64,000 bases of DNA, taken from the NCBI RefSeq assembly GCF_020102855.1, contig NZ_JADHZD010000001.1, forward strand, positions 1 through 64,000, read 5' to 3'. A model generated the notes under the pieces. That model was not told the origin of the DNA. It saw nothing but the letters and a program-made list of their open reading frames with translations, and made no database searches. The translations under genes were made by a program, and so were the position numbers. Numbering within the stretch: position 1 is the stretch's first letter; each line of letters begins with the position of its first letter. The stretch is from Nocardioides lacusdianchii (lineage in GTDB: Bacteria > Actinomycetota > Actinomycetes > Propionibacteriales > Nocardioidaceae). Positions 16,876 through 30,566 of the stretch are shown piece after piece.

Positions 16876-19338
16876 TTAGTCAGGCGCCCTGCGAGAACGC
16901 CAATCTGCGAGGCGCCGCACGCGTCCCAGCGCCGCGGCGACACGCCCGGACGCGGGGGCGCGGGTCGTCGACGTGGCGGTGTCCGGGTCGGACGCGGGGG
17001 CCGAGGACGTACGCCGCAGCGAGCGCAGGCTGATCGCGGCGCGCGCGCGCTGCCAGCGCCCGACCTCCTGCGACATCGCACGCCGTTCGGCGTCGACCGA
17101 CTCCCAATAGGTCGCGGCGGCCGAGGCCTCCGGGACGCTGGGGCCGAAGACGAAGCTGTCCGCACGCCGCGCCAGGGCCCCGGCCTGGCCCGAGACGATG
17201 CCGGCGGACTGCTCGCGCCGGGTGACCGTCGGGCCGAGCGGGACGACCTGGCCGAGGTCCCGGGCGTGGTCGACCAGCTCGCGCCAGGCGCCGACGAAGC
17301 GCGCGGAGGGCGAGTCGGCGCTGCGGCGCCGGTGCCGACGCCACGCCTTGAGGCCGACGACCGCAGCCAGGAGCAGGACGAGGAGCAGCAGCGGGCCACC
17401 GACGTAGGTGACGATGATCCCCACCCACCCGGGCAGGTCGGCGATCAGGCCCTCGTCCTCCTCCTCGGCCTTCTTGCGGGTGGCCTTGCGCTCCTTGAGG
17501 TCGGCGTCGCTCTGCTCGCCGGCGTCGCTCGGCGGCGGGATGGGGTTGGGCGGCGGGATCACCGTGCCGGACATCGGGGTGTTGGTCTCCGGCACCTGGT
17601 CGGCCGGCGGCGTCCTCGACATGAAGGCGTCGGTGGGCAACGTCTTCCACGACCCGTCGGCCGCGCGCAGCTCGACCCATGCCGCGACCTCCTGGCCGGT
17701 GATGCGTCCGCCCTCGGGCACCTCGGCCCCGAGCACGACCCGCGCCGGGACTCCGATGTCGTTGGCGATCAGCGCCATCGTGGCGGCGTACTGCTCGTCG
17801 TTGCCGACGATCTGCGGGGCGTTGACGAACTCGTCGGACAGCCTGAACACGCTGTGCCCGGCGACGTAGACGCGCTCGGTGCGCCCGACCCCGTCGGAGT
17901 ACTTGCCCTCGGTGCGCAGGTGCTCCGCGGCCGCCAGCACGCGGTCCATCGGGTCGGTGCCGGCCCCCTCGGTCCACTTCTCCGTCGGGCCCTGGATGAA
18001 GGAGGCGCCGGGAGGCAGCGGCCACGACTGCTCGGCGGAGCCGACCGTCTCGTCGGTCAGCTCGTCGTCGGGCTGCACGGCGGTGAAGGAGTAGGTGTCG
18101 CCGGGAGCGAGGCCGCTGGGGACCACCGCGGTGGACGTGGCGAGGTTGTAGCGGAAGATGTCGGCCTTGGCGCGCGCGTCGGCGGTCTCGAACCGCATCG
18201 ACTGCAGCGCGCCCACGGTGGGGAGCCAGACTCCAGTCCAGCCCTCGCCGAGGGTGACGCTGACCTCGACCTCCTCGCCCTCGACGGGGTTGTCGATGGT
18301 CGAGGAGACGCGCTGGAAGGAGTCGTCGGCCGGACCGGGCAGCGCGTTGTCGCTCGCGCCCCACACCATGCCGTCGTAGCGGTCCATGATCGCGAAGCGC
18401 ACCAGCGTCCCGGGCTCGACGCCGTCGACGTCGAGGAGGACCTTGTCGTAGACGTTGCCCGGCAGGTTGCGGCCCTGGAGGTCGATGTACTTGCGGAACC
18501 CGGCCAGTGGGGACGGGTAGCGGCCGATGTCGAAGGGCGGCTCGACCCAGTTGCGGGCCACCGCCCGCTCGTCGCCGACCCAGCCGCTCGCCGGGAGGGC
18601 AAGGCCCGCCGCGACGACCAGCATCGCGACCGCACCGGCACTGCGGAGCCACGACGTGGTGCCGCCCTGCACCGAGGCGCTCGCGCGGCGCGCGCGCAGC
18701 GCCAGCCACGCCAGCGCCAGCCCGGCGAAGACCGAGCCCTGGAGCAGCAGGGACTGGGGGTGGCGTACGCCGAGCACGATGGCGCCCGACAGCACGACGG
18801 TCATCCCGAGCACGGGCAGTGCCGCCGACAGCCACGCGCGCCGGACCGGGAGGTGGGCGAGAGCGAGGCCGACCAGCCCTGCGAGCAGGCCCGACATCCA
18901 CGGCAGCACGAGCAGCGGACCGTCGCCGTCGACCGGCGGCAGGGTAGTGAGCAGGTCCTTCCAGCCGAAGACCGCCTGGTCGGCGACACGGGCCAGGGTC
19001 GTGGAGCCCGGGAGCACGGAGGTGTCGCCCAGCGAGCGCAGGCACAGCGGCCCGCCGAGCAGGAAGAACAGGCCCAGGCAGACCACCACGGCCGAGATGA
19101 CGGGCCAGCCCGCGGCACGCGTCAGGTGGGTCACCACGACGGCGATGACGACGCCGAGCACGCCCACGACGAGGTACGCCGACCCGGTGAAGGAGGTGCC
19201 GAAGGCGGTGAGGGCGACGACCGCGAGGGCGATCGTGAACGCGATGTCGGTCCACGCATTCCGGTCGGGCAGGAGCGCGTGGGGACGCACCCGGGTGCGG
19301 GTCCCGGTGGCGCCGGAGCGTCGGGGGCTGTCCGTCAT
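16876..19338 (-). CDS. Membrane protein with DUF3488-type N-terminus and degenerate transglutaminase-like domain
   Basis: An 820-aa protein. Residues about 20-260 hold seven or so hydrophobic segments as in DUF3488/TgpA-type proteins. An extracytoplasmic part follows, with a transglutaminase-like domain at about 480-580, another membrane helix near 640-665 and a basic cytoplasmic tail. The catalytic triad is missing: D514 replaces Cys (GNDEQYAA), A553 replaces His (AAWVEL) and L567 replaces Asp (TLPTD). It therefore cannot work as a normal transglutaminase or protease and may bind a partner instead. It overlaps the DUF58 gene by 4 nt, completing a MoxR-DUF58-transglutaminase triad. Confidence 0.8.
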   Translation of the reverse strand: MTDSPRRSGATGTRTRVRPHALLPDRNAWTDIAFTIALAVVALTAFGTSFTGSAYLVVGVLGVVIAVVVTHLTRAAGWPVISAVVVCLGLFFLLGGPLCLRSLGDTSVLPGSTTLARVADQAVFGWKDLLTTLPPVDGDGPLLVLPWMSGLLAGLVGLALAHLPVRRAWLSAALPVLGMTVVLSGAIVLGVRHPQSLLLQGSVFAGLALAWLALRARRASASVQGGTTSWLRSAGAVAMLVVAAGLALPASGWVGDERAVARNWVEPPFDIGRYPSPLAGFRKYIDLQGRNLPGNVYDKVLLDVDGVEPGTLVRFAIMDRYDGMVWGASDNALPGPADDSFQRVSSTIDNPVEGEEVEVSVTLGEGWTGVWLPTVGALQSMRFETADARAKADIFRYNLATSTAVVPSGLAPGDTYSFTAVQPDDELTDETVGSAEQSWPLPPGASFIQGPTEKWTEGAGTDPMDRVLAAAEHLRTEGKYSDGVGRTERVYVAGHSVFRLSDEFVNAPQIVGNDEQYAATMALIANDIGVPARVVLGAEVPEGGRITGQEVAAWVELRAADGSWKTLPTDAFMSRTPPADQVPETNTPMSGTVIPPPNPIPPPSDAGEQSDADLKERKATRKKAEEEDEGLIADLPGWVGIIVTYVGGPLLLLVLLLAAVVGLKAWRRHRRRSADSPSARFVGAWRELVDHARDLGQVVPLGPTVTRREQSAGIVSGQAGALARRADSFVFGPSVPEASAAATYWESVDAERRAMSQEVGRWQRARAAISLRSLRRTSSAPASDPDTATSTTRAPASGRVAAALGRVRRLADWRSRRAPD

Positions 19339-20513
19339 CGCACGCTCCATCGCAGCAAGCCGCCGAGGTCTTCCTTGGCGGCGAGGTGGAGGACGGGGAG
19401 GCCACCGGTCTCGGTGACCCGGCTGGTGCCGTCGGGCTCGACCACGATGCCGAAGCGGCGCACCTCCGGCGGGAACGCCGCGGCTGCGCGCAGGAGGTCG
19501 GTGAACTCCGTGGCGCTGCCACCGACGAAGAACGCCAGGCTGGTGTCGGGCGCGAGCATGCTGGCCTGGCGTCCGGACTCCACGACGCCACGCGGACCGA
19601 AGTCGGCGCGGCACACCGCGTCGAGGGCCAGGTGGCCGTCGGAGCCGGAGGAGGCGTGCGAGCCGCAGACGAACGAGACGTCGAACTCGTCGAGGACGGC
19701 GCGCACGGCGATGGACGCAGCGACCGCCATGGCGGTCTCGAAGTCCTCGGGGTCGCTCCACGACGCGAGCCGGTCGTCGACGACGATCGTGGCGTGGCTG
19801 CGCCGGGTGTCGAGGTACTGGCGCACCAGCAGGGCCGACTCCCCCGTCGACGCCATCACCTTGGCCGACGAGCGCCAGTGGATGTGGCGCAGGTCGTCAC
19901 CGGGGACGTACTCGCGCAGCGCGTGGAAGGCGAGGTCGCTCTGGCTGACCGCGTCGGTCGAGACGCCCTCGAGGTCGCGCAGCAGGCCTGCGCCCAGCGA
20001 CTCCATCGGCACCAGGTGCGGGCGCACGAGCACCTCGCGGACCGGCGTCCACACCACGTCGCGGGAGAAGACGCCGACCGGGTCGCCGCGCCGGGTCATC
20101 GCCGGCCCGACCGGGATCACGCCGCGCCGCTCGGTGCGGATGGTGAAGGACTCCTCGTGGGTGGCACCGGGCGCGAGCGAGGAGATGCCGTAGCGGTGGA
20201 TGGCGGAGCCGACCGGCACCTCGAGCGTCGTCGGGACCAGGCGCGAGGACGCCCGGTTCGTCACCGCGACGCCGGCCGCCACGGACTCCCCCGCTGCCAC
20301 CCGCTCGGGCTGCAGGCGCAGGTCGACCGCCACCGACGTCCTGCCGAGCAGGAACGGCAGTGCCAGCACCAGGAGGGCGAGGCACGCCACGGACAGCACG
20401 GCGAGCTCGCGCCACTGCGCGACCTCGGCGACGACGCCCGTGCCGAGCCCGATCACGAGGAGCAGCCAGCCGATCGGCCGAACGACCTCGAGTGCCTGGG
20501 TGATGCGCTTCAT
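19335..20513 (-). CDS. DUF58-domain membrane protein
   Basis: A 392-aa protein. Two N-terminal membrane helices (about residues 12-30 and 36-56) are followed by a beta-rich region, then the DUF58 signature LREYVPGDDLRHIHWRSSAK near residue 200 and a von Willebrand A-like C-terminal half. DUF58 proteins are almost always coded beside a MoxR AAA ATPase and often a transglutaminase-like protein, as here. The MIDAS-like part is thought to bind a metal or partner protein during MoxR-assisted assembly. The gap from moxR is 7 nt; the end overlaps the next gene by 4 nt. Confidence 0.9.
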   Translation of the reverse strand: MKRITQALEVVRPIGWLLLVIGLGTGVVAEVAQWRELAVLSVACLALLVLALPFLLGRTSVAVDLRLQPERVAAGESVAAGVAVTNRASSRLVPTTLEVPVGSAIHRYGISSLAPGATHEESFTIRTERRGVIPVGPAMTRRGDPVGVFSRDVVWTPVREVLVRPHLVPMESLGAGLLRDLEGVSTDAVSQSDLAFHALREYVPGDDLRHIHWRSSAKVMASTGESALLVRQYLDTRRSHATIVVDDRLASWSDPEDFETAMAVAASIAVRAVLDEFDVSFVCGSHASSGSDGHLALDAVCRADFGPRGVVESGRQASMLAPDTSLAFFVGGSATEFTDLLRAAAAFPPEVRRFGIVVEPDGTSRVTETGGLPVLHLAAKEDLGGLLRWSVR

Positions 20514-20520
20514 CGCCTCC

Positions 20521-21492
20521 TCAGGCCCCCACGCGGTCCGTCGGCGGCGCGACGGCGTCGAGCAGGCGCGAGATCACGGTCTGGACGTCGACCCCGCTGA
20601 ACTGTGCCTCGGCGTCGAGCAGCACACGGTGCGAGAGCACCGGCTCGGCGAGGTCCTTGACGTCGTCGGGCACGACGTGGTCGCGGCCGTCCGCTGCCGC
20701 CCAGGTCTTGGCGACGCGGACCAGCGCGAGGCAGCCGCGGGCCGACAGGCCGAGCTTGACGTGGGGCTGGCGACGTGACTCCTCGGCCAGCTCGGCGACG
20801 TAGCCGATCACGGCCGGGTCGACGTAGACCTGGTCGGCCAGGCCGCTCATCTGGGCGATGGTCGCGGCCGTGATCACCGGGGTGACCAGGGATGCGCGGT
20901 CGCGCACCGCGGCGTTGTTGAGCAGCTCGACGGTGGCCTGCCGGTCGGGGTAGCCGATGGAGCTCTTCATCAGGAAGCGGTCCAGCTGGGCCTCGGGCAG
21001 GCGGTAGGTGCCTGCCTGCTCGATCGGGTTCTGGGTGGCGATCACCAGGAACGGCTTGCCCACCGGGTGCGCGACGCCGTCGACGGTGACGCGTCCTTCC
21101 TCCATCACCTCGAGCAACGCGGACTGGGTCTTGGGCGAGGCGCGGTTGATCTCGTCGGCCAGGACGATCGTGTGGAAGATCGGCCCGGGGTGGAACTCGA
21201 AGGTGCCTTTGTGCTGGTCGTAGACCGTGACGCCGGTGACGTCGGAGGGCAGCAGGTCGGGCGTGAACTGGATGCGCGCGTGACTGCCCTGCACCGTGTT
21301 GGCGAGGGCGCGGGCCAGCATCGTCTTGCCCGTGCCGGGGAAGTCCTCCAGCAGGATGTGGCCCTCCGAGAGCAGGCAGGTCAGCGCCAGGCGTACGACG
21401 TGGCGCTTGCCGAGCACGGCCTTCTCCATGTTGTCGGTGAGCTGGTCGAAGGTGGACTTGAACCACTCGGCCTGTTCGGGGCTGATCGTCAT
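20521..21492 (-). CDS. MoxR-family AAA+ ATPase
   Basis: A 323-aa cytoplasmic ATPase. Walker A is G53-T57 (FPGTGKT), Walker B LADEIN with D113/E114, followed by RASPKTQSALLEVMEE and sensor 1 ATQNPIEQAGTYRLPEAQLDRF, the MoxR-family pattern. These ATPases act as chaperones that remodel or insert cofactors into partner proteins, usually DUF58/VWA proteins. ATG 21492 was chosen because it gives the family N-terminus; the longer frame upstream is low-complexity. It lies 61 nt after the giant rod-protein gene and is probably co-transcribed with it. Confidence 0.93.
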   Translation of the reverse strand: MTISPEQAEWFKSTFDQLTDNMEKAVLGKRHVVRLALTCLLSEGHILLEDFPGTGKTMLARALANTVQGSHARIQFTPDLLPSDVTGVTVYDQHKGTFEFHPGPIFHTIVLADEINRASPKTQSALLEVMEEGRVTVDGVAHPVGKPFLVIATQNPIEQAGTYRLPEAQLDRFLMKSSIGYPDRQATVELLNNAAVRDRASLVTPVITAATIAQMSGLADQVYVDPAVIGYVAELAEESRRQPHVKLGLSARGCLALVRVAKTWAAADGRDHVVPDDVKDLAEPVLSHRVLLDAEAQFSGVDVQTVISRLLDAVAPPTDRVGA

Positions 21493-21553
21493 GCGTGGGG
21501 TCCTCTGCTGGTGGCGGGCTCGCGGTGCAGGCGTGGAGCGTGGCGGTGGGGCG

Positions 21554-24500
21554 TCAAGGGAACGACACGTCGAAACCGGCTGCGGTGTAGATGCTGGAGA
21601 AGGTGCACCGTCCCGAGACGCGCTGGCCCGAGGAGTAGAAAGGCGCCACCTGCCCCGAGAAGTCCCCGTCGCCGCTCGGGTCGCGGCGGAAGTCGAACTG
21701 GTCGAAGTCGCAGGACCAGCGGGTCTGCGGGGCACCCTCGGCGAACCTCACGGTCAGGAGGACATAGGCGCAGGAGTCCACGGTGCACTTCGTCTCGAGC
21801 GCTTGCGCACACGCGGGCTGGTCGGGGTTGTCGTCCTGGCAGCGCGCGCCACGGCCGATCGCGATGCTCGGGGTGGGGGGTGCTCCCGACGTCGCACTGC
21901 TTCTGCCCTCACGTTGACCTCTGTCGCCCGGGGCGTCGTCGTAGACGGTCACGAAGATCTCCTGCTCCTGCAGGTAGTTCGGCGTGGTGAAGGCCGGGGT
22001 GGTGAAGGTGAACGCGCCCACGCCCGTGGGACGGAAGGTCTGCACTGGCAGCTCCCTATCCCCATCATTACGGACCTGGTAGGCGACCACCGCGGGGTTG
22101 CCGTTGCTGCTGCCCGAGATCGTCCACTGGATCGACCTGCCGTTGACCGAGGACTGGATCGACAGTGGCGTGTCCCTGAGCGGACCGTAGGTCTGCACGT
22201 TCTGCACGCCACTGAGGGTGCACCCGACAGGCGCGTCCTCGTTGCACACCCGCAGCTGGACGGCGTACGCCTGCTCGTTGCCCGGCGTGGGGATCCTCAC
22301 CGAGGCCGCGCCGGTCTGCTGCGGGAACGTGCGGACCACGAGGCCGGCGACCAGGATCTCGACCTTGCTGGTGCTGCCTCGGGAGTCGGGCACGGTGTAG
22401 GAGACCTCGGCCTCCTGGTTGGACCCGGTGGGCGCCACCTGGAAGGCGCCCCACGCGGCGGGCCGGCCGACGGCCTGGATCGCCGTGCCCTCGCTGGGGA
22501 CTGAGCTGTTGGAGACATTGGCGGCGACGACACGGTAGGTATAGGTCCGGCCGTCGTAGGGCACCCCGCTGTGGATGCACGTCAGGGAGGTGATCCCCTG
22601 GCAGCCCGGCACGCCGGCGGTGGTGGCGCCGTTGCTGTAGCTCACCGAGTAGACGGTCGGGCCGGGGCCTTCCGGCATCACCGACTGCCACGCGATGCGC
22701 AGGTCGGTCTGGTTCGGGCCCGACTCGAGGTCGGCGACGGCGGGCGCTGCCGGGGGCGGGGGCGTGCCGAGCGGCTGGAACTCCGGCGACTGGCGCACCC
22801 CGGAGTAGCCGGCCTCGTTCTGGGCCTTGATGAAGAAGACGTACTTCGTGTTGTTGTCGAGCCCGCTCGCGGGGAAGCTGGTCTTGTCGCCGGGCACCGT
22901 CACGCCGTTGGGACTGCCGACGTAGGTGATCGTGTAGTCGATGATCTTGGACGTCGTCGTGGTCGGCTTGTCCCACGCGATCGTGATCGACCCGTCGCCC
23001 CGGTCGGTCATCCGGATGTCCTGCACGCGGCCCGGGGCCGTGTCGGCCTGCGCCGTCTTCGAGAGGTCGCTGAACTCGCTCGGACCGACGCGGTTGACCG
23101 CCTGCACCCGGAAGTTGTAGTTGCGGCCGTTCTCGAGGTTGCGGAAGACGCACTCGTTGGTGTCGCAGCGCTGCTTGGCGCCGGTCTTCTCCTCGCGGAC
23201 CACGTAGTAGAGGACGGGCGCTCCGCCGTCGTCGTCCGGCGGCGGCCAACCCATCTCGACCGCTCCAGAGCGCTGGGCGTCAGGGTAGGGACGCGGCGCG
23301 CCGGGGGCCTCGGGAACGCCGACGACCTGGAACTCGATGCGCCCCTCGGCGCGACGCGAGCTCGGCGGGTCGTCGGTGGACACGTCGCTGACCACCAGCC
23401 GGAAGCTCGCCCGGACCCCGCGGGCGTCCTTGGCCGCGGTGAGCGTGAGCCGGCTGCCGCTGACCGAGGCGCGTACGCCGGGACTTCCGGTGTTGTCCAC
23501 CGTCACGATCCTCGGGTCCGGGTCGGCCACCCCTGCCTGGAGGTAGGACGCGATGTCGAAGGTGCGGGTCTGGCCGGCCTCCATCGTCTCGACCCGGATC
23601 GGCTGCAGGCGCGGCGCCGGGGCCTGGTCGAGCAGGAATCGGATCTCTTGGGTGTTGCTGTCCTCCGCCTGCACGGTGAGGGACGCCTCGCCGCCCTCGG
23701 TCGCGGTGTCGGCCACCGTGATCGCGACGACCGAACCGTCGGGGTCGCCGACGTCCACGCCGTCGACTCCCTGGGACCACTCGGCGCTGTAGGACAGGCC
23801 AGCGACGTCGCGGGGGTCAGGGGTCGACACGGTGCAGAAGGTCGCGATGTCGAGGTCGTAGCGCTGGCCGGCCGTGATCGGCACCACCGTCGAGGGGCAC
23901 TCCAGCGTCGGGGTGTCGTCGCCGACCTGGACCGGGATCGACAGCAGGACCGTCGCTCCGTCCTCGGTGGTCGAGGAGTCCTCGTTGCCGCTGGCGTTGC
24001 GCGCCGAGGTCACCTCGACGAGCAGCGCCCCCGGTCCGCGGAAGCCGGCGGCGGCGGACAGCGAGAAGCCGTTGTCGCCGTCGGGACCGACCTGCAGCTC
24101 CTGCGGCGACGCCGAGTAGGAGCGCCGTCCCGACGCCAGGCGTACGTCGGCACCGCCGGGCGCGGCGACGTAGTCGGAGATCCTGCCGGTCACCGTGTCC
24201 CCCGCGTCGAGCGTGATCTGGGCGTCCGGCAGGACGTAGGGCAGGCCGTTGCCGGTCGGCGGGATGTAGACCGAGGCCACGGCGGTGGCACCGTCGGCGT
24301 CACGCACCTCGAACGGCAGCACCTTCGGCGCCTCGCCGCGGTTGGCGCGGACCTCCACGCCGTCGACGACGCGGGCCGACGGGTCGCCGCCCACGCCGGT
24401 CACCTCGAGCGACTCGGCGTCGCCGTCGGGGTCGTAGGCGCCCTCGAGCACGTCGACCACGACGCTGCCGCTGTCGTCGGCGCGACCGAACGCGTCGTAG

Positions 24501-27500
24501 ACGATCGGCGGGTTGTTGAAGCGGTCGGCCGTCTCGAGGGTCATCGTGGAGCGGGACTCGTTGAGCCCGTTGGTCACCCGGTAGACGAGGGTCGTGGGGG
24601 GGCCGTCGAGCGTGTCCGGCGCCGGCACCGTCACGAGGTTGGTCTCGGGGTCGAGACGAGCGCCGTCCGGCTTCTCGACCAGCTCGATCTCCACGGAGTC
24701 GCCCGGGGCGATGAAGTCGTTGGCGAGCGGGTCGAAGGTCGCCGTGCGCCCCGGCTCGACGGTGAGGCGGTCCTCGACGGCCAGTGGCGGCTGAGGCTGT
24801 CCCGGCTCCACCACGGCCACGCGCACGGTGCCGGTGGCGAAGGCACCCTGGGAGTCGACCACGGCGTAGGTGAACTCGTCGGTGCCGGTGGTGCGCGGGT
24901 AGGCCTGGTACTCGAGGACGTTGCCGCCGTAGGACACGATGCGCCCCAGCCGCGGGGCGGAGGTGATGCCGGTGACGGTGACCGGGTCGCCGTTGCGGTC
25001 CACCCCGACGCCGGGCACGCGGATCTTGACCTCGTCGCCGGAGACCACCCGACCCTCCAGGGTCGGCGGCTCGGGCGGGTCGTTGGGGTCGTCGGTCGGG
25101 ATGACGGTCACCTGAAGGCGGCCGTTGGCGCGCTCGCCGTCGAGGTTCTGCGCGACGTAGGTGACGGTGTAGGTGTCACGCTCCTCGACCTGCTCGGGAG
25201 CGACGTAGCGCACGATGCGGCCCGACACGAACGCCTGGCCGACGTCGCCGGTCACGTCGATCGGCGCGACCACCTCGAGCTGGCCCGGGGCGGGGCTGTC
25301 CACCAGGTCGCCCAGCAGCGTCAGCCGGTCGCCCGACGGCGACACGTCGTTGTCGAGCACGGGCGCGGAGACGGAGGCGCCCGCGCGCACGACCACCCGG
25401 TCGGCCACCGTGATGGGCGTGTTGTCGGCCGGCTTGGGTCGCTGGGTCACCACGACCTCACCGCGTACGCCGGAGCTGGTGCCGTTGCTGATCGTATAGG
25501 AGACGGTCTGCGTCACCGCCGCTGCATCCGGGCGCAGCGCGGAGATCCGCAGCCACCGGCCGTCGATGATCGCCACGTCGAGGTCGCCGACCCTGTCGGC
25601 GGCGGCGCGCTGCACGACCAGGAGGCCCCCGGCGGGGTCGAGGTCGTTGGCCAGCACGTCGACGATGCCCGGGGCCTGGCCGTAGACCGTGAGCGTGTCG
25701 GGCATCGCGATGGGCTCCGCGGCCCGCTTGGGCCTGGGCTTCACGTCCACCCGGATGGTGCCCAGGTCGAGCGGGGCGTTGCCGTAGCCGGCGTTGTAGT
25801 TGAGGAAGAAGGTGCCGGCTCGCTCGCCCGTGAAGGTCAGCTGGCCCGCGTCGAGGTCGGAGACGACCTTCGCGCCCGGCTGCTGCGGTACCTTGCCCGC
25901 GAGCGAGAGCTCGGCGTTGGGCGCGTTGGGGTCCGAGCCCGGCAGGTCGTTGAGCAGGGGACGGATCTTGATCGGCTGCCCGACCTCGCCACGCACCACG
26001 TCGGGCTCGGCGCGGGGCGCGAAGGTCTTCTGGTCCTTGGGCGCCTGGACCTGGAACCCGATGGACTTGCGGACCGGCTCGGACCGGCCGTCGGTGACCG
26101 CGAACTCCACGCGCACCAGCTGCTGGCCCTGGGAGTCGGTCCTGGGCGCGGTGAAGCGGATCCGGCCGTCAGCCGTGGTCCGGGCCGACGCCCCGGTCGC
26201 CTCGCCGTTGACGGCCGTCGCCGAGTCCAGCAGCAGGGTGTCGCCGTCGCTGTCGTCGCGCCAGTCGGCGAGCACGGGGACGGACAACGCACCGCCGTGG
26301 GGGACCTTGTAGGTCGGCTTCTCGTAGCCCTCGCGCAGGTCCGGGGCCTCGTTCTGCAGCTCGCCACGCACCCTGACGTCGACGCTGGCGTTGGCCGCGA
26401 CACCGTTGCGCCCGTCGTCGATGAAGTAGTCGAAGGTCGCGGGTCGCGCATCCTCCGGCATCTGCAGCACCAGCGTCTGGCCGTCGGGGCTGATCTCGAC
26501 CCTGGCCCCGCCGCCGGGCTGGTCGACGTCGACGATGCTGAGGATCCGGCCCTCGGGGGCGGAGTCGTTGTCGAGCGGGTGCAGGACAGTGGTGCGACCG
26601 GCGCGCACGCCGTAGGAGTCGGGCTCGGCCCGGGGCGGGCGCTGGTCGGCGTCGGTCTGGTTCTCGTTCTCGTTCTCGTCGTCCTGGTTCTTCTTCTTCG
26701 AGGTGAAGGACTCCCAGTTGTCGATCCGCTGCGGACTGTCCTGCTGGACGTCCCACACCGTGCCGCTGTTGGCGTCGTTGAGCACGATCTCGTCCCGGTT
26801 GACCCGGAAGGCGAGGCTGGTGGCGTCGCCGCCCAGGGCGTCCTGGTTGACCTCGTCCGACCCACACTGCACGGCCACGGCACCCTCACCGCCGGACCAG
26901 GCGCCGAAGACGCAGGCGCCGAGGCGTACGGGCTCCACGGGCGTTCCGGACCTGTCGGAGATGGACGTGTCGTCGCCGGAGTCGAGGTCGACGCCCAGCA
27001 GTCCGTCGGGCGCACCCACGAGCACGGCGTCGGCGGAGGGGCCGGCCTGCTGGAGCACGCTGTCGACCGGCACAGTGGCGGTCGCGCCGCCGACGACGCT
27101 GAGCACGCCGGCGTCGGCGTCGAGGGTCACGATCCGGTCGCCGACCGTGGTCACCTGAGTGACCTGGCCGGCGCCGCCGGGCAGGTCGCGGGTCTCGGGC
27201 TCGGCGAACCCTGCGTCGCGGGGGGCCACCGTCGTGACGGTGCCCTCCTCCGAGGAGGTGACGACGATCGTGCCGTCCTGGGAGACGGCGAGCGCCGCGC
27301 CCTCACCGGCCTCGGCGATCGGGTCGGCCTGGCTGTCGACGGCGCTCATCACCGGCTTGCCCAGCTGGTCGTCGTAGCGCACGGCCCAGAACTGGCCGGT
27401 CTCCGCGTCGAGGCTGGCCAGGGTCGACCCGGCCATCTGCACGTCGCCTGCGGTGGGGATCGCGGCGGTGCCGCCGTCCTGGGACTCCAGCTTGCTGGTG

Positions 27501-27814
27501 TCGATGGCCTGGCCGCGGCTGGCGTTGGTGTTGATGCTGACGACGGCGGCGCCGTCCTGGACGACGTCGAGGCGCGTCCTGCCCTCGGGGCTCGGCACGA
27601 CGCCGTCGAGCTGGTTGATCGGCTTGTTCAGCCGGCCCGACCAGCCCTTCTTGCCGTTGACGACCCAGATGCCGCCGTCGTTGAGCTCGGCCTCGTGCTT
27701 CTTGTAGCCGCTCGCCGTGACGGCATAGACGACGACCGCGCCGGTCGCGATGGTGAGCGCGACACCCGAGGCGATGCCCACCCGGTGCCGGCGCACGAAA
27801 GCCCCACGTGCCAC
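21554..27814 (-). CDS. Giant anchored Ig-like / fibronectin type III repeat protein
   Basis: A 2086-aa protein. GTG 27814 has AGGGGG six nt upstream. Residues about 12-33 are one membrane helix after a basic stretch (FVRRHR), predicting a cytoplasmic N-terminus and an exported body. Residues about 45-370 are beta-rich with short repeats of propeller type; then an Asn/Asp/Glu-rich linker. From about 400 to 1500 lie roughly ten Ig/cadherin-like modules carrying the VLxND or PLxND motif (VLANDLDPAGG, VLDNDVSPSGD, PLANDF). From about 1500 to 1960 are fibronectin type III modules (NGRNYNFRVQAVNRVGPSEF, NNTKYVFFIKAQNEAGYSG). The last 120 residues contain six or more cysteines. It likely forms a long extracellular rod; the ligand is unknown. 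No sorting signal is present. Confidence 0.88.
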   Translation of the reverse strand: MARGAFVRRHRVGIASGVALTIATGAVVVYAVTASGYKKHEAELNDGGIWVVNGKKGWSGRLNKPINQLDGVVPSPEGRTRLDVVQDGAAVVSINTNASRGQAIDTSKLESQDGGTAAIPTAGDVQMAGSTLASLDAETGQFWAVRYDDQLGKPVMSAVDSQADPIAEAGEGAALAVSQDGTIVVTSSEEGTVTTVAPRDAGFAEPETRDLPGGAGQVTQVTTVGDRIVTLDADAGVLSVVGGATATVPVDSVLQQAGPSADAVLVGAPDGLLGVDLDSGDDTSISDRSGTPVEPVRLGACVFGAWSGGEGAVAVQCGSDEVNQDALGGDATSLAFRVNRDEIVLNDANSGTVWDVQQDSPQRIDNWESFTSKKKNQDDENENENQTDADQRPPRAEPDSYGVRAGRTTVLHPLDNDSAPEGRILSIVDVDQPGGGARVEISPDGQTLVLQMPEDARPATFDYFIDDGRNGVAANASVDVRVRGELQNEAPDLREGYEKPTYKVPHGGALSVPVLADWRDDSDGDTLLLDSATAVNGEATGASARTTADGRIRFTAPRTDSQGQQLVRVEFAVTDGRSEPVRKSIGFQVQAPKDQKTFAPRAEPDVVRGEVGQPIKIRPLLNDLPGSDPNAPNAELSLAGKVPQQPGAKVVSDLDAGQLTFTGERAGTFFLNYNAGYGNAPLDLGTIRVDVKPRPKRAAEPIAMPDTLTVYGQAPGIVDVLANDLDPAGGLLVVQRAAADRVGDLDVAIIDGRWLRISALRPDAAAVTQTVSYTISNGTSSGVRGEVVVTQRPKPADNTPITVADRVVVRAGASVSAPVLDNDVSPSGDRLTLLGDLVDSPAPGQLEVVAPIDVTGDVGQAFVSGRIVRYVAPEQVEERDTYTVTYVAQNLDGERANGRLQVTVIPTDDPNDPPEPPTLEGRVVSGDEVKIRVPGVGVDRNGDPVTVTGITSAPRLGRIVSYGGNVLEYQAYPRTTGTDEFTYAVVDSQGAFATGTVRVAVVEPGQPQPPLAVEDRLTVEPGRTATFDPLANDFIAPGDSVEIELVEKPDGARLDPETNLVTVPAPDTLDGPPTTLVYRVTNGLNESRSTMTLETADRFNNPPIVYDAFGRADDSGSVVVDVLEGAYDPDGDAESLEVTGVGGDPSARVVDGVEVRANRGEAPKVLPFEVRDADGATAVASVYIPPTGNGLPYVLPDAQITLDAGDTVTGRISDYVAAPGGADVRLASGRRSYSASPQELQVGPDGDNGFSLSAAAGFRGPGALLVEVTSARNASGNEDSSTTEDGATVLLSIPVQVGDDTPTLECPSTVVPITAGQRYDLDIATFCTVSTPDPRDVAGLSYSAEWSQGVDGVDVGDPDGSVVAITVADTATEGGEASLTVQAEDSNTQEIRFLLDQAPAPRLQPIRVETMEAGQTRTFDIASYLQAGVADPDPRIVTVDNTGSPGVRASVSGSRLTLTAAKDARGVRASFRLVVSDVSTDDPPSSRRAEGRIEFQVVGVPEAPGAPRPYPDAQRSGAVEMGWPPPDDDGGAPVLYYVVREEKTGAKQRCDTNECVFRNLENGRNYNFRVQAVNRVGPSEFSDLSKTAQADTAPGRVQDIRMTDRGDGSITIAWDKPTTTTSKIIDYTITYVGSPNGVTVPGDKTSFPASGLDNNTKYVFFIKAQNEAGYSGVRQSPEFQPLGTPPPPAAPAVADLESGPNQTDLRIAWQSVMPEGPGPTVYSVSYSNGATTAGVPGCQGITSLTCIHSGVPYDGRTYTYRVVAANVSNSSVPSEGTAIQAVGRPAAWGAFQVAPTGSNQEAEVSYTVPDSRGSTSKVEILVAGLVVRTFPQQTGAASVRIPTPGNEQAYAVQLRVCNEDAPVGCTLSGVQNVQTYGPLRDTPLSIQSSVNGRSIQWTISGSSNGNPAVVAYQVRNDGDRELPVQTFRPTGVGAFTFTTPAFTTPNYLQEQEIFVTVYDDAPGDRGQREGRSSATSGAPPTPSIAIGRGARCQDDNPDQPACAQALETKCTVDSCAYVLLTVRFAEGAPQTRWSCDFDQFDFRRDPSGDGDFSGQVAPFYSSGQRVSGRCTFSSIYTAAGFDVSFP

Positions 27815-27972
27815 GCCATTCCCCCTTGGCCACACCCGATGACGTGCGCCCGCCGCAGTCAACCACAGGAGGGTAAGTATGCAGTCGAGGTTCCGACAAG
27901 TCGGGACCTCCTGCGGCGGACGTGGACGATGGGTGATGATGGAGGCGTGGGCGTGCACGAGGGGAGCCGACG
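27815..27972. promoter_or_regulatory. Divergent intergenic region of the rod-protein and FHA-kinase units
   Basis: This 158-bp gap must hold promoters for both directions. It contains the palindrome TTCCGACAAGTCGGGA (27891-27906, 7-bp arms with one G-T) and, around it, a 9-bp inverted repeat CCGCCGCAG/CTGCGGCGG whose right arm adjoins CCTCCTG, complementary to CAGGAGG further left. The nested symmetry suggests a shared operator. No confident -35/-10 pair was found on either strand. Confidence 0.45.
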
Positions 27973-29157
27973 TTGATCGTGGAAGCGAGGTACACCGGGG
28001 GGACCGGTGTGCTGCTCGGCAGTGGCGCCCACTGGGTGCTGATGACCGACCCCGGCGACGAGCAGGTCGTGGAGGAGGTCTGGGAGGCCCTGTCCATGAC
28101 CGCGCCGACCGGGGCCGGTGTGGTCGAGCGCGTGCTGGCAATCGTCGAGAAGGCCTTCGCGGGCGACCCTCCGGGACTCGCGGTCGTCGACTTCACCTCC
28201 GGTGCCTCCACGACGTTGTCGCGCGGTGCCGGGCACGTACGCCTGTCCGGACCGGCGCGGGTCCTGAGCCTGGACGCCGGGGCCGACCCCGAGGGCCTGT
28301 CGAGCACCCGGCGCCTCGTCGGCGGCGTGGTGGGCGCCGATCGTGTCGAGCTGCGGCCGTTGTCGGTCCGCACCGCGCCAGCGGTGCAGCAGGCCGAGAC
28401 ATCCGCAGCACCCGCGCCCGCAGGTGCTCCCCTCATCGACGGCATCCCGGCCGCGATCCTCGCCGCGAAGGGCCCGGACGGGCCTCCGCCGCGCACCCGG
28501 ACCATGCGTCCGGCGCAGGACACCGGCTCGCTCACCGACACCTCCGAGCCCGACCCGCTGCTGGTGCAGCGCATCGAGGAAGGTGCCCACACCACGATCC
28601 GGCCGGCCTCCGCGCCCCACACCACCCCCGAGCCCGACGACCACGACGGGTCCACCACCTTCCGGCCCGCCCACCTCTCCCACCCGACCGCGCCCACGGT
28701 GCTGGCGGTGAGCTGCCCGCTCGGCCACCTCACGCCCCCGGCCTCGCCGCAGTGCCGCGTCTGCCACCAGCGGGTCGCGCCGCAGGAGCCGCGGCGCGTG
28801 GACCGGCCGCCGCTCGGTGGCCTGCGCCTGCCGACCGGGGAGGTCGTGCCGCTCGACCGTGGCGTCATCCTGGGCCGCAAGCCCGCGCCGGCCAAGGACA
28901 GCACCGACTGGCCGCACCTGGTGCACCTGCCCGCCGACCACTCGTTCGTCTCGCGCCGGCACCTGCAGATCGAGCTCGACGGCTGGGACGTGGTGGCCCG
29001 CGACCTCGACAGCCGCGGCGGCACCACCATCGCCCTGCCCGGGCGGGAGCCGCAGCGCATGACGGCCGGCGACGCCTATGTGCTCGAGGCAGGTACGGTC
29101 CTCGACATGGCGCACGTCTACGCGGTCCGCTACGAGACGGGGGCGACCGCCCGGTGA
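27973..29157 (+). CDS. FHA-domain adaptor with zinc ribbon and repeated Thr motifs
   Basis: A 394-aa cytoplasmic protein starting at TTG 27973, with GAGGGGAG about 8 nt before it. Residues 1-130 form an unrecognised alpha/beta domain. Residues 140-245 are low-complexity and hold three similar motifs: TMRPA (177-181), TTIRPA (207-212) and TTFRPA (228-233). A zinc ribbon follows (C248, H252, C261, C264). The C-terminal FHA domain (about 297-385) has GVILGRK and SRRH (327-330), the phosphothreonine-binding loops. The Thr motifs are plausible phosphorylation sites for the kinase coded next, read by this or another FHA domain. The end overlaps the kinase by 4 nt. Confidence 0.82.
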   Translation: MIVEARYTGGTGVLLGSGAHWVLMTDPGDEQVVEEVWEALSMTAPTGAGVVERVLAIVEKAFAGDPPGLAVVDFTSGASTTLSRGAGHVRLSGPARVLSLDAGADPEGLSSTRRLVGGVVGADRVELRPLSVRTAPAVQQAETSAAPAPAGAPLIDGIPAAILAAKGPDGPPPRTRTMRPAQDTGSLTDTSEPDPLLVQRIEEGAHTTIRPASAPHTTPEPDDHDGSTTFRPAHLSHPTAPTVLAVSCPLGHLTPPASPQCRVCHQRVAPQEPRRVDRPPLGGLRLPTGEVVPLDRGVILGRKPAPAKDSTDWPHLVHLPADHSFVSRRHLQIELDGWDVVARDLDSRGGTTIALPGREPQRMTAGDAYVLEAGTVLDMAHVYAVRYETGATAR

Positions 29158-30566
29158 GCGCTCCGGTCATCCCCGGGTTCGCGTTCGTCGAGCACCTGGG
29201 CAGCGGCGGCTTCGCCGACGTGTTCCTCTACGAGCAGCAGTGGCCGCGCCAGCGGGTCGCGGTGAAGGTCGTGCGTCCCGACGTGCCCCTCACCGACCGC
29301 GAGAAGTACCTCTTCACCGCCGAGGCCAACGCGATGGCCCGCCTGGCCGACCACCCCTACATCGTCTCGGTGATCACCGCCGGCGTCACGGCGGAGGGCG
29401 GCCGGCCGTTCCTGGTCATGCGCTACTGCCCGCCGCCGGACCTGGGGATCCGGGTGCGCTCCAACCCGATGGCGCCGGTCGACGCCGTCGCCACCGGCAT
29501 CAAGCTGGCCAGCGCCATCGAGACCGCCCACCGCTCGGGCATCCTGCACCGCGACATCAAGCCGAGCAACGTGCTCGTGACGACCTACCACGAGCCGGCC
29601 CTCACCGACTTCGGCATCGCCGGCCACATGGCCGACGTGGAGGGCGACAACGACGTCAGGATCTCCTACCCCTGGTCGCCGCCCGAGCTCCTCGACGGCC
29701 GTTCCAACGGATCGGTGGCCTCCGACGTCTACTCGCTCGGCGCCACGATCTGGCACCTGTTGGTGGGGCGCTCGCCCTTCTCCATCCCCTCCGGCGACAA
29801 CTCCACCCGGGCGCTGAGCGCGCGCATCCTGCATGCCGCTCCCCCGGCCACCCAGCGACCCGACGTGCCGCCCGCCCTCGACCGCCTGCTCCAGCAGTGC
29901 CTGGCCAAGCGCCCCGAGCACCGGCCCTCCAGCGCGCTCGAGCTCGCCCGCGCGCTCCAGCGCATCGAGTCGGCCGCCGGCTGGGCACGCACCGCGGTCG
30001 CGGTGGAGGGCGACCGGCCCGACTCCTCGGTTGCGGCACCCGAGGTCCCGGAGTCCCCCGAGGACGCCACCGCGATGAAGCCGGTGACCGTCATCTCCGC
30101 CAGCGGACCGCGCCGCATCGCTCCGCAGGTCTCCACCCCGCCCACCGACGAGGACGAGCAGGACCGCAGCCGGGTCTCGGGCCTCGTGTGGGCCGGTGTC
30201 GGTGCGGCCGTGCTCGCACTCGTCGTGGGCTACCTGGTCCTCGGCGGCGGGGGTGAGCGCGAGGAGGACCCGGGAGTCGTGCTCCCGTCCGGCTCCCAGA
30301 CGCCGAGCGCCGTCGTGCCGGACGTGCTGACCGAGGCGCCGAGCCTCACCGGGGCTCGTACGCCGCGCGGTGTGCTCTTCGAGTGGCGTCCACCGGTCCC
30401 CCCCGAGCCGGGCGACTCCTTCAGCTATCGCCGCGACGACACCGGCGCCTACGGCAGCACCACACGGCAGCAGCTGCTGGTGCGCACCGACGAGCCGATC
30501 TGCCTCGACGTGCGGATGACGCGTGGGTCGGACAACTCCCCCACCGCCTCGGAGTGCGTCACCTGA
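29154..30566 (+). CDS. Transmembrane Ser/Thr protein kinase (PknB-like)
   Basis: A 470-aa Hanks-type kinase. The Gly-rich loop is residues 16-23 (GSGGFADV), the ATP lysine K38 (VAVKVV), the catalytic loop HRDIKPSN with D134, and DFG with D152. The activation segment reads VRISYPWSPPELLDG, where most PknB-like kinases have a GT-x-x-Y-x-APE motif, so control may differ. After a Ser/Thr/Pro-rich linker, one membrane helix spans about 342-366 and about 100 residues lie outside, ending in a fibronectin-like segment (TPRGVLFEWRPP) with two cysteines. It is coupled to the FHA adaptor and faces the rod-protein operon. Confidence 0.9.
   Translation: MSAPVIPGFAFVEHLGSGGFADVFLYEQQWPRQRVAVKVVRPDVPLTDREKYLFTAEANAMARLADHPYIVSVITAGVTAEGGRPFLVMRYCPPPDLGIRVRSNPMAPVDAVATGIKLASAIETAHRSGILHRDIKPSNVLVTTYHEPALTDFGIAGHMADVEGDNDVRISYPWSPPELLDGRSNGSVASDVYSLGATIWHLLVGRSPFSIPSGDNSTRALSARILHAAPPATQRPDVPPALDRLLQQCLAKRPEHRPSSALELARALQRIESAAGWARTAVAVEGDRPDSSVAAPEVPESPEDATAMKPVTVISASGPRRIAPQVSTPPTDEDEQDRSRVSGLVWAGVGAAVLALVVGYLVLGGGGEREEDPGVVLPSGSQTPSAVVPDVLTEAPSLTGARTPRGVLFEWRPPVPPEPGDSFSYRRDDTGAYGSTTRQQLLVRTDEPICLDVRMTRGSDNSPTASECVT

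Follow-up and report, generated by a model that had tools for sequence, protein, structure and literature searches.

The Pro/Thr-rich linker of an FHA-domain adaptor from Nocardioides lacusdianchii probably carries, judging by the alignment of its relatives, one core threonine motif, one accessory motif and one incidental motif, rather than three equal repeats. The core motif is strongly conserved in the genus, and the adjoining gene encodes a membrane Ser/Thr kinase with a similar motif in its juxtamembrane segment. The adaptor gene lies in the window, by which we mean the whole stretch of 64,000 nucleotides analysed (contig NZ_JADHZD010000001.1, positions 1 to 64,000). Its product consists of an N-terminal domain (fold unassigned, residues ~1-130), the linker, a zinc-ribbon-like knuckle and the FHA domain:

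27973..29157, forward strand: FHA adaptor gene, 394 aa (ORF with a TTG start; Pfam FHA match; alignments)
28501..28515, forward strand: site 1, T177-M-R-P-A, residues 177-181 (Thr in 6/60 sequences)
28591..28608, forward strand: site 2, TTIRPA from T207, residues 207-212 (T207 in 49/60, invariant among the 31 closest)
28639..28677, forward strand: site 3, DHDGST228TFR231PAHL (T228 and R231 each in 58/60); its TTFRPA is residues 228-233, nucleotides 28654-28671
28714..28764, forward strand: zinc-ribbon-like knuckle C248-x2-G-H252 ... C261-x2-C264, after site 3 and ahead of the FHA domain
28810..29145, forward strand: FHA domain, limits approximate (Pfam FHA, residues 318-377, E 5.8e-6)

Our counts draw on a genus search that found a match in 123 of 196 genomes, together with 12 loci from a second collection. 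We fetched the loci given by the genus search and 40 further regions, leaving unfetched the weaker genus-search matches and the second copies in genomes G019, G046 and G141. From 83 loci we dropped one paralogue (L002), nine duplicates and two truncated proteins (L070 and L071), and retained 60 group A sequences, counting the one from the window, and 11 group B sequences. The two groups were separated by hand, and group A includes one sequence (L081) with a normal NGT turn in its FHA domain. The kinase set keeps L070 and L071, giving 62 group A kinases; kinase tails without a recognised domain end were dropped (4/11 in group B and 1/8 in another family). All counts are inflated by kinship of the sequences and do not represent independent events.

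The three motifs are present at residues 177-181, 207-212 and 228-233, as originally predicted, but they are unequal. Site 3 is the most constant in group A: alongside T228 and R231, G226 is found in 57 sequences, D225 in 55 and H224 in 54. Site 2 follows, with R210 in 47 sequences and T208 in 40. The equality of the three repeats is ruled out by site 1, which shows no conservation: the count of six for T177 includes the window's own sequence, and 25 of the 31 closest sequences have Arg in place of Met178. The alignment check proposed beforehand, that the motifs be kept while the linker drifts, is thus borne out for site 3, mostly so for site 2 and not for site 1. Among the 31 closest sequences (own included; the closest named relative's protein, from N. 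furvisabuli, is 94% identical to the adaptor), T207, T208, I209, R210, T228 and R231 are invariant, and identity to the window protein averages 99% over the 11 motif columns that we chose and 69% over the remaining linker columns. In the same sequences Thr228 is encoded by ACC or ACG and Arg231 by four codons, so it is the amino acid itself that has been held. In a diverse alignment of 28 sequences with a mean column identity of 37%, few linker columns are conserved at >=90%, T228, R231 and L235 among them. T, V and S are the usual residues at position 229 in group A; hence the acceptor would be the first threonine, and the "TT" is no defining feature.

We also compared the linkers with shuffled sequences. 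In 20,000 composition-preserving shuffles of the adaptor's 88-residue linker, none equalled its three copies of T.RPA and five reached its two copies of TT.RP; both patterns were picked post hoc, once the sequence was known, and conservation in relatives is therefore the better test. Across group A, DHDG.T[TVSI] occurs in 51/60 linkers (shuffle mean 0.01) and T[TVSI].R in 57/60 (shuffle mean 11.2, maximum 19), the three group A linkers without the latter being L047, L066 and L069; some matches in distant linkers, such as L056, fall off the aligned site. None of the 11 group B relatives has T[TVSI].R, and seven of the 11 have T-L/M-x-R, followed by residues resembling A-[DE]-L, at the same place ahead of the zinc knuckle.

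The FHA domain retains most of the residues that contact phosphothreonine in this fold: R302, S327 and H330 are found in 60/60 group A sequences, and R328 and T351 in 59/60. The Asn of the usual NGT turn is replaced, position 349 being Gly in 56 sequences, Ala in two, Ser in one and Asn in one; the turn in the window reads SRGGTT (29008-29031). Because the Ser, Arg, His and Thr of the site are invariant or nearly so, conservation suggests that the domain still binds phosphothreonine. The nearest solved FHA structure by profile is that of TB39.8 (E 0.004), also known as FhaA. The knuckle residues C248, G251, H252, C261 and C264 are present in 60/60 sequences, and the knuckle would be expected to bind zinc. 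An AlphaFold model built from 13 close sequences has a mean pLDDT of 43, too low to read docking.

The expectation that the overlapping next gene encodes a Ser/Thr kinase holds, with a Pfam Pkinase match at E 6.3e-39 and the adaptor's TGA stop overlapping the kinase's GTG start:

29154..30566, forward strand: membrane Ser/Thr protein kinase gene, 470 aa (Pfam Pkinase)
29607..29687, forward strand: kinase activation segment DFGIAGHMADVEGDNDVRISYPWSPPE, without Thr
30060..30092, forward strand: juxtamembrane motif EDAT306AMKPVTV (T-x-[VILMF]-[KR] conserved)
30168..30251, forward strand: stretch with a likely transmembrane segment (hydrophobicity by script and by eye)

The kinase gene directly follows the adaptor gene in every one of the 82 Nocardioides loci that were fetched (L001 and L003-L083). 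The kinase is Hanks-type by its protein kinase domain, with the activation-segment Thr missing; the segment ends in PWSPPE, and most relatives read alike. The juxtamembrane pattern T-x-[VILMF]-[KR], which the original prediction did not mention, is present in 62/62 group A kinases (shuffle mean 4.4, maximum 12), in variants such as DATYVKP, DRTVMKA, DVTSVKP and DATRVKP, and its Thr is encoded by three codons among the 31 closest. In group B, seven kinase tails hold 26 copies of T..R[PAR] (shuffle mean 6.5, maximum 14), and four of the group B kinases (L072, L073, L074 and L076) have repeated TTARP or TAARP in the juxtamembrane tail. Of 13 kinase matches in the window's own genome, 10 are readable, the window kinase among them, and by eye only the window kinase has D-x-T-x-hydrophobic-[KR]; looser forms occur in L157 (T-P-V-K) and L159 (T-T-A-R), and a fallback offset served to locate the compared stretch in L155, L157 and L160. 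The adaptor and kinase motifs of group A are alike in having a Thr, often a hydrophobic residue at +2, a basic residue at +3 and mostly Pro at +4. We sought co-variation at +3 between the two motifs by eye and found none that was consistent across distant lineages; in L118, L141 and L146-L148, the +3 residue stays basic in the kinase and not in the adaptor. Since the motifs do not co-vary residue by residue across those lineages, a reader shared by both is putative.

We propose that motifs in the linker, one of them a core site, become phosphothreonine ligands of an FHA domain through the action of the neighbouring kinase, with Thr306 of that kinase as a second ligand. We give this reading slightly less than an even chance. 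In its favour are the selective conservation of the motif through synonymous codon change, the kinase gene next door, the kinase's own conserved motif, the lack of Thr in its activation segment, the FHA residues kept for phosphothreonine, the related motifs in class loci and in an FHA paralogue, and the precedents of FhaA with PknB and of the self-binding tails of GarA, OdhI and DgcB. The overlapping membrane kinase would phosphorylate its own juxtamembrane Thr306, in D-x-T-x-hydrophobic-K-P; the adaptor's FHA domain would dock on phosphorylated Thr306 and bring the linker to the kinase; and the kinase would then phosphorylate Thr228, in DHDGxT[TVS]xRP, and Thr207 where it is present. The phosphorylated linker could bind the FHA domain of its own or of another adaptor molecule, such that the adaptor closes or clusters and the kinase is freed. 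A PP2C-type phosphatase might reset the system; its gene, ~48 kb away, neighbours that of an FHA paralogue. We infer the phosphorylation events, the binding partners, the role of the phosphatase and the order of the steps. Several observations count against the proposal: the Arg at +3 is unlike the hydrophobic +3 residue of the self-binding tails described in passages of PMC6733907, the FHA Asn is Gly in 56/60 sequences, the +3 residues of adaptor and kinase do not co-vary, three group A linkers and all of group B lack T[TVSI].R, a matching kinase was not found in the fetched stretch at 12 of 20 loci of another family, and the adaptor family is patchy.

The phosphorylated core site may instead be read by a different FHA protein, with the adaptor serving as a scaffold. 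The window's own genome offers six FHA matches, five of which were read as proteins; the sixth lies in a 171-residue frame on contig 50. Two of the five proteins have D-x-DG-x-T: the adaptor and a PP2C-linked paralogue ~48 kb away. The paralogue combines its own motif, DRDGQTQV, with a normal NGT turn. Its locus (L002, beyond the window at about 76.5 kb on C1) encodes a PP2C phosphatase, this second FHA protein and then an RDD-like FHA protein, RDD being assigned by eye; when 20 regions were fetched for the paralogue, 13 gave a match, and D-x-DG-x-T is present in 13 of 14 sequences, own included. These features, together with the Gly in the adaptor's own FHA domain, make the paralogue a candidate reader of phosphorylated Thr228. 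However, the adaptor's domain keeps the Ser, Arg, His and Thr of the site, which suggests that it binds phosphothreonine itself, and we consider another reader somewhat unlikely. DHDGxTxxR might also be a docking or metal-binding peptide that acts independently of phosphorylation, since all of its D, H, D, G, T and R are conserved and not the Thr alone; D-x-DG loops can bind calcium. We regard this as improbable, given that the kinase gene adjoins the adaptor and that no residues are more constant than T228 and R231, with Ser at position 228 in 0/60 sequences, as an FHA ligand would need.

Multiple phosphothreonine motifs in the adaptor and kinase tails may alternatively build a multivalent cluster or condensate. 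In support of this, two copies of T[TVSI].R are found in 44/60 linkers and three in one, the group B kinase tails are rich in T..R[PAR], and clustering with a phosphorylated linker and FHA domains has a precedent in Rv1747, as reported in part of PMC9312465. Nonetheless, 12/60 linkers have a single copy and three have none, so multivalency is not general, and as an account of the family it seems quite doubtful. The further prediction that three copies give graded self-binding finds no support either, because copy number varies and one of the copies is incidental. Lastly, the motifs could be chance repeats, without function, in a Pro/Thr/Ala-rich linker encoded by GC-rich DNA. For site 1 chance is the likely explanation, given its rare Thr177 and its replaced Met178, but sites 2 and 3 exceed shuffled expectation and have been held through synonymous change, making chance highly improbable for the linker as a whole. 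Our preferred reading remains that of an FHA ligand with one core site.

The adaptor-kinase pair stands beside four genes on the opposite strand:

21554..27835, reverse strand: large Ig/cadherin-like and fibronectin type III protein, the fn3 counterpart, divergent from the adaptor (Pfam Big_9, fn3; start approximate)
20521..21735, reverse strand: MoxR-type AAA ATPase (Pfam AAA_3, E 3.5e-62; start codon not settled)
19335..20513, reverse strand: DUF58-like protein (Pfam DUF58, E 5.1e-4, 19.7 bits, below the cut-off of 23.4)
16876..19464, reverse strand: transglutaminase-like protein (Pfam Transglut_core, E 1.2e-8; start approximate)

The cluster sits amid ribosomal-region genes (13508-34607), flanked by those for SecY, adenylate kinase and an M24 peptidase at one end and those for ribosomal S4 and RNA polymerase alpha at the other; a TerC gene adjoins the kinase. 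In bifidobacteria, the PFNA cluster comprises pkb2, fn3, aaa-atp/MoxR, duf58 and tgm, with prpC and fha added in some species, according to passages of PMC8430577 that treat such clusters as host-sensing operons and give the FHA protein a generic phosphopeptide-binding role.

Beyond the genus, the adaptor family is patchy. At the cut-offs used, matches were found in 42/117 genomes of the order and 66/296 of the class, as compared with the genus count given above, and none was found in any of the 16 listed genomes from other genera of the same family. The class figures on motifs concern only the 21 new loci returned by that search that were read. Seven of these 21 (L137, L138, L139, L141, L146, L147 and L148) have a literal DHDGxT[IV] immediately ahead of the zinc knuckle and FHA domain, and in class kinases T-x-[VILMF]-[KR] and T[TVI].R are each found in 10/11. 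A looser acidic-G-T-[IV] pattern (DHDGATIF, AHDGATVF, EDDGGTIF) was seen by eye in 10 of 20 order loci, which belong to another family; at 12 of those 20 loci, a matching kinase was not found inside the fetched stretch. A broader, speculative reading of these patterns is a PFNA-type module, patchy in the class, in which one phosphothreonine code, acidic-x-T-x-x-(basic)-P, would serve both adaptor and kinase; the FHA domain, whose Asn is replaced by Gly and which in Nocardioides would prefer Arg or Lys at +3, would pick either the adaptor itself or the kinase, and copy number would tune valency. We think it rather unlikely that this holds in full. We found neither a DHDG motif associated with an FHA domain nor a Nocardioides FHA domain linked to a kinase and a threonine in the open-licence literature. 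The conserved threonines of adaptor and kinase provide handles for dissecting PFNA-type wiring in Nocardioides; because the usual Asn is missing from its FHA domain, the adaptor also offers a probe of what that residue is needed for.

Among known systems, the bifidobacterial PFNA cluster resembles the window in gene set: genes for a kinase, an FN3 protein, a MoxR ATPase, a DUF58-like protein (with its match below the Pfam cut-off), a transglutaminase-like protein and an FHA protein occur together in both, as far as the cluster is set out in passages of PMC8430577. The order and single direction given there are not shared, since in the window the FHA and kinase genes form an overlapping pair on the forward strand, divergent from the other four genes on the reverse strand. 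Moreover, the PP2C gene lies ~48 kb away beside a second FHA gene, and the organism is a Nocardioides, no gut commensal; the likeness is one of gene set.

The original prediction drew an analogy with GarA and OdhI, which holds in layout, a Thr motif lying just ahead of an FHA domain, and fails in detail. Passages of PMC6733907 describe GarA, OdhI and DgcB as having self-binding Thr tails with a hydrophobic +3 residue; in the adaptor, residue 229, the second Thr of the motif, is variable, the residue at +3 from T228 is Arg, and the FHA Asn is mostly Gly. The genome also has a true homologue elsewhere, a separate ORF that matches the NCBIfam OdhI model at E 1.2e-55 (186.9 bits, against a cut-off of 200), and hence the adaptor is not GarA; the adaptor itself has no NCBIfam match above cut-off and does not hit the OdhI model. 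Membership of the GarA/OdhI family is thus ruled out for the adaptor on orthology and on its +3 Arg. What the systems may share beyond layout is kinase-controlled self-binding, here a working model; they differ in that the adaptor has DHDGxT[TVS]xRP with Arg at +3, an FHA domain without the Asn, and a neighbouring membrane kinase as its partner.

Rv1747 and DgcB provide a further parallel, in that a phosphorylated linker or tail acts with the FHA domain of the same protein, as passages of PMC9312465 and PMC6733907 report and as may happen here; the adaptor differs from Rv1747, an ABC transporter that has two FHA domains, and from DgcB, a diguanylate cyclase. FhaA binds the phosphorylated juxtamembrane domain of PknB, as stated in part of PMC12077195, and FHA docking on a juxtamembrane phosphothreonine is the step that we propose for the adaptor and its kinase. 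The two pairs differ in domain layout and gene context, and in Nocardioides the adaptor's linker has a similar motif too.
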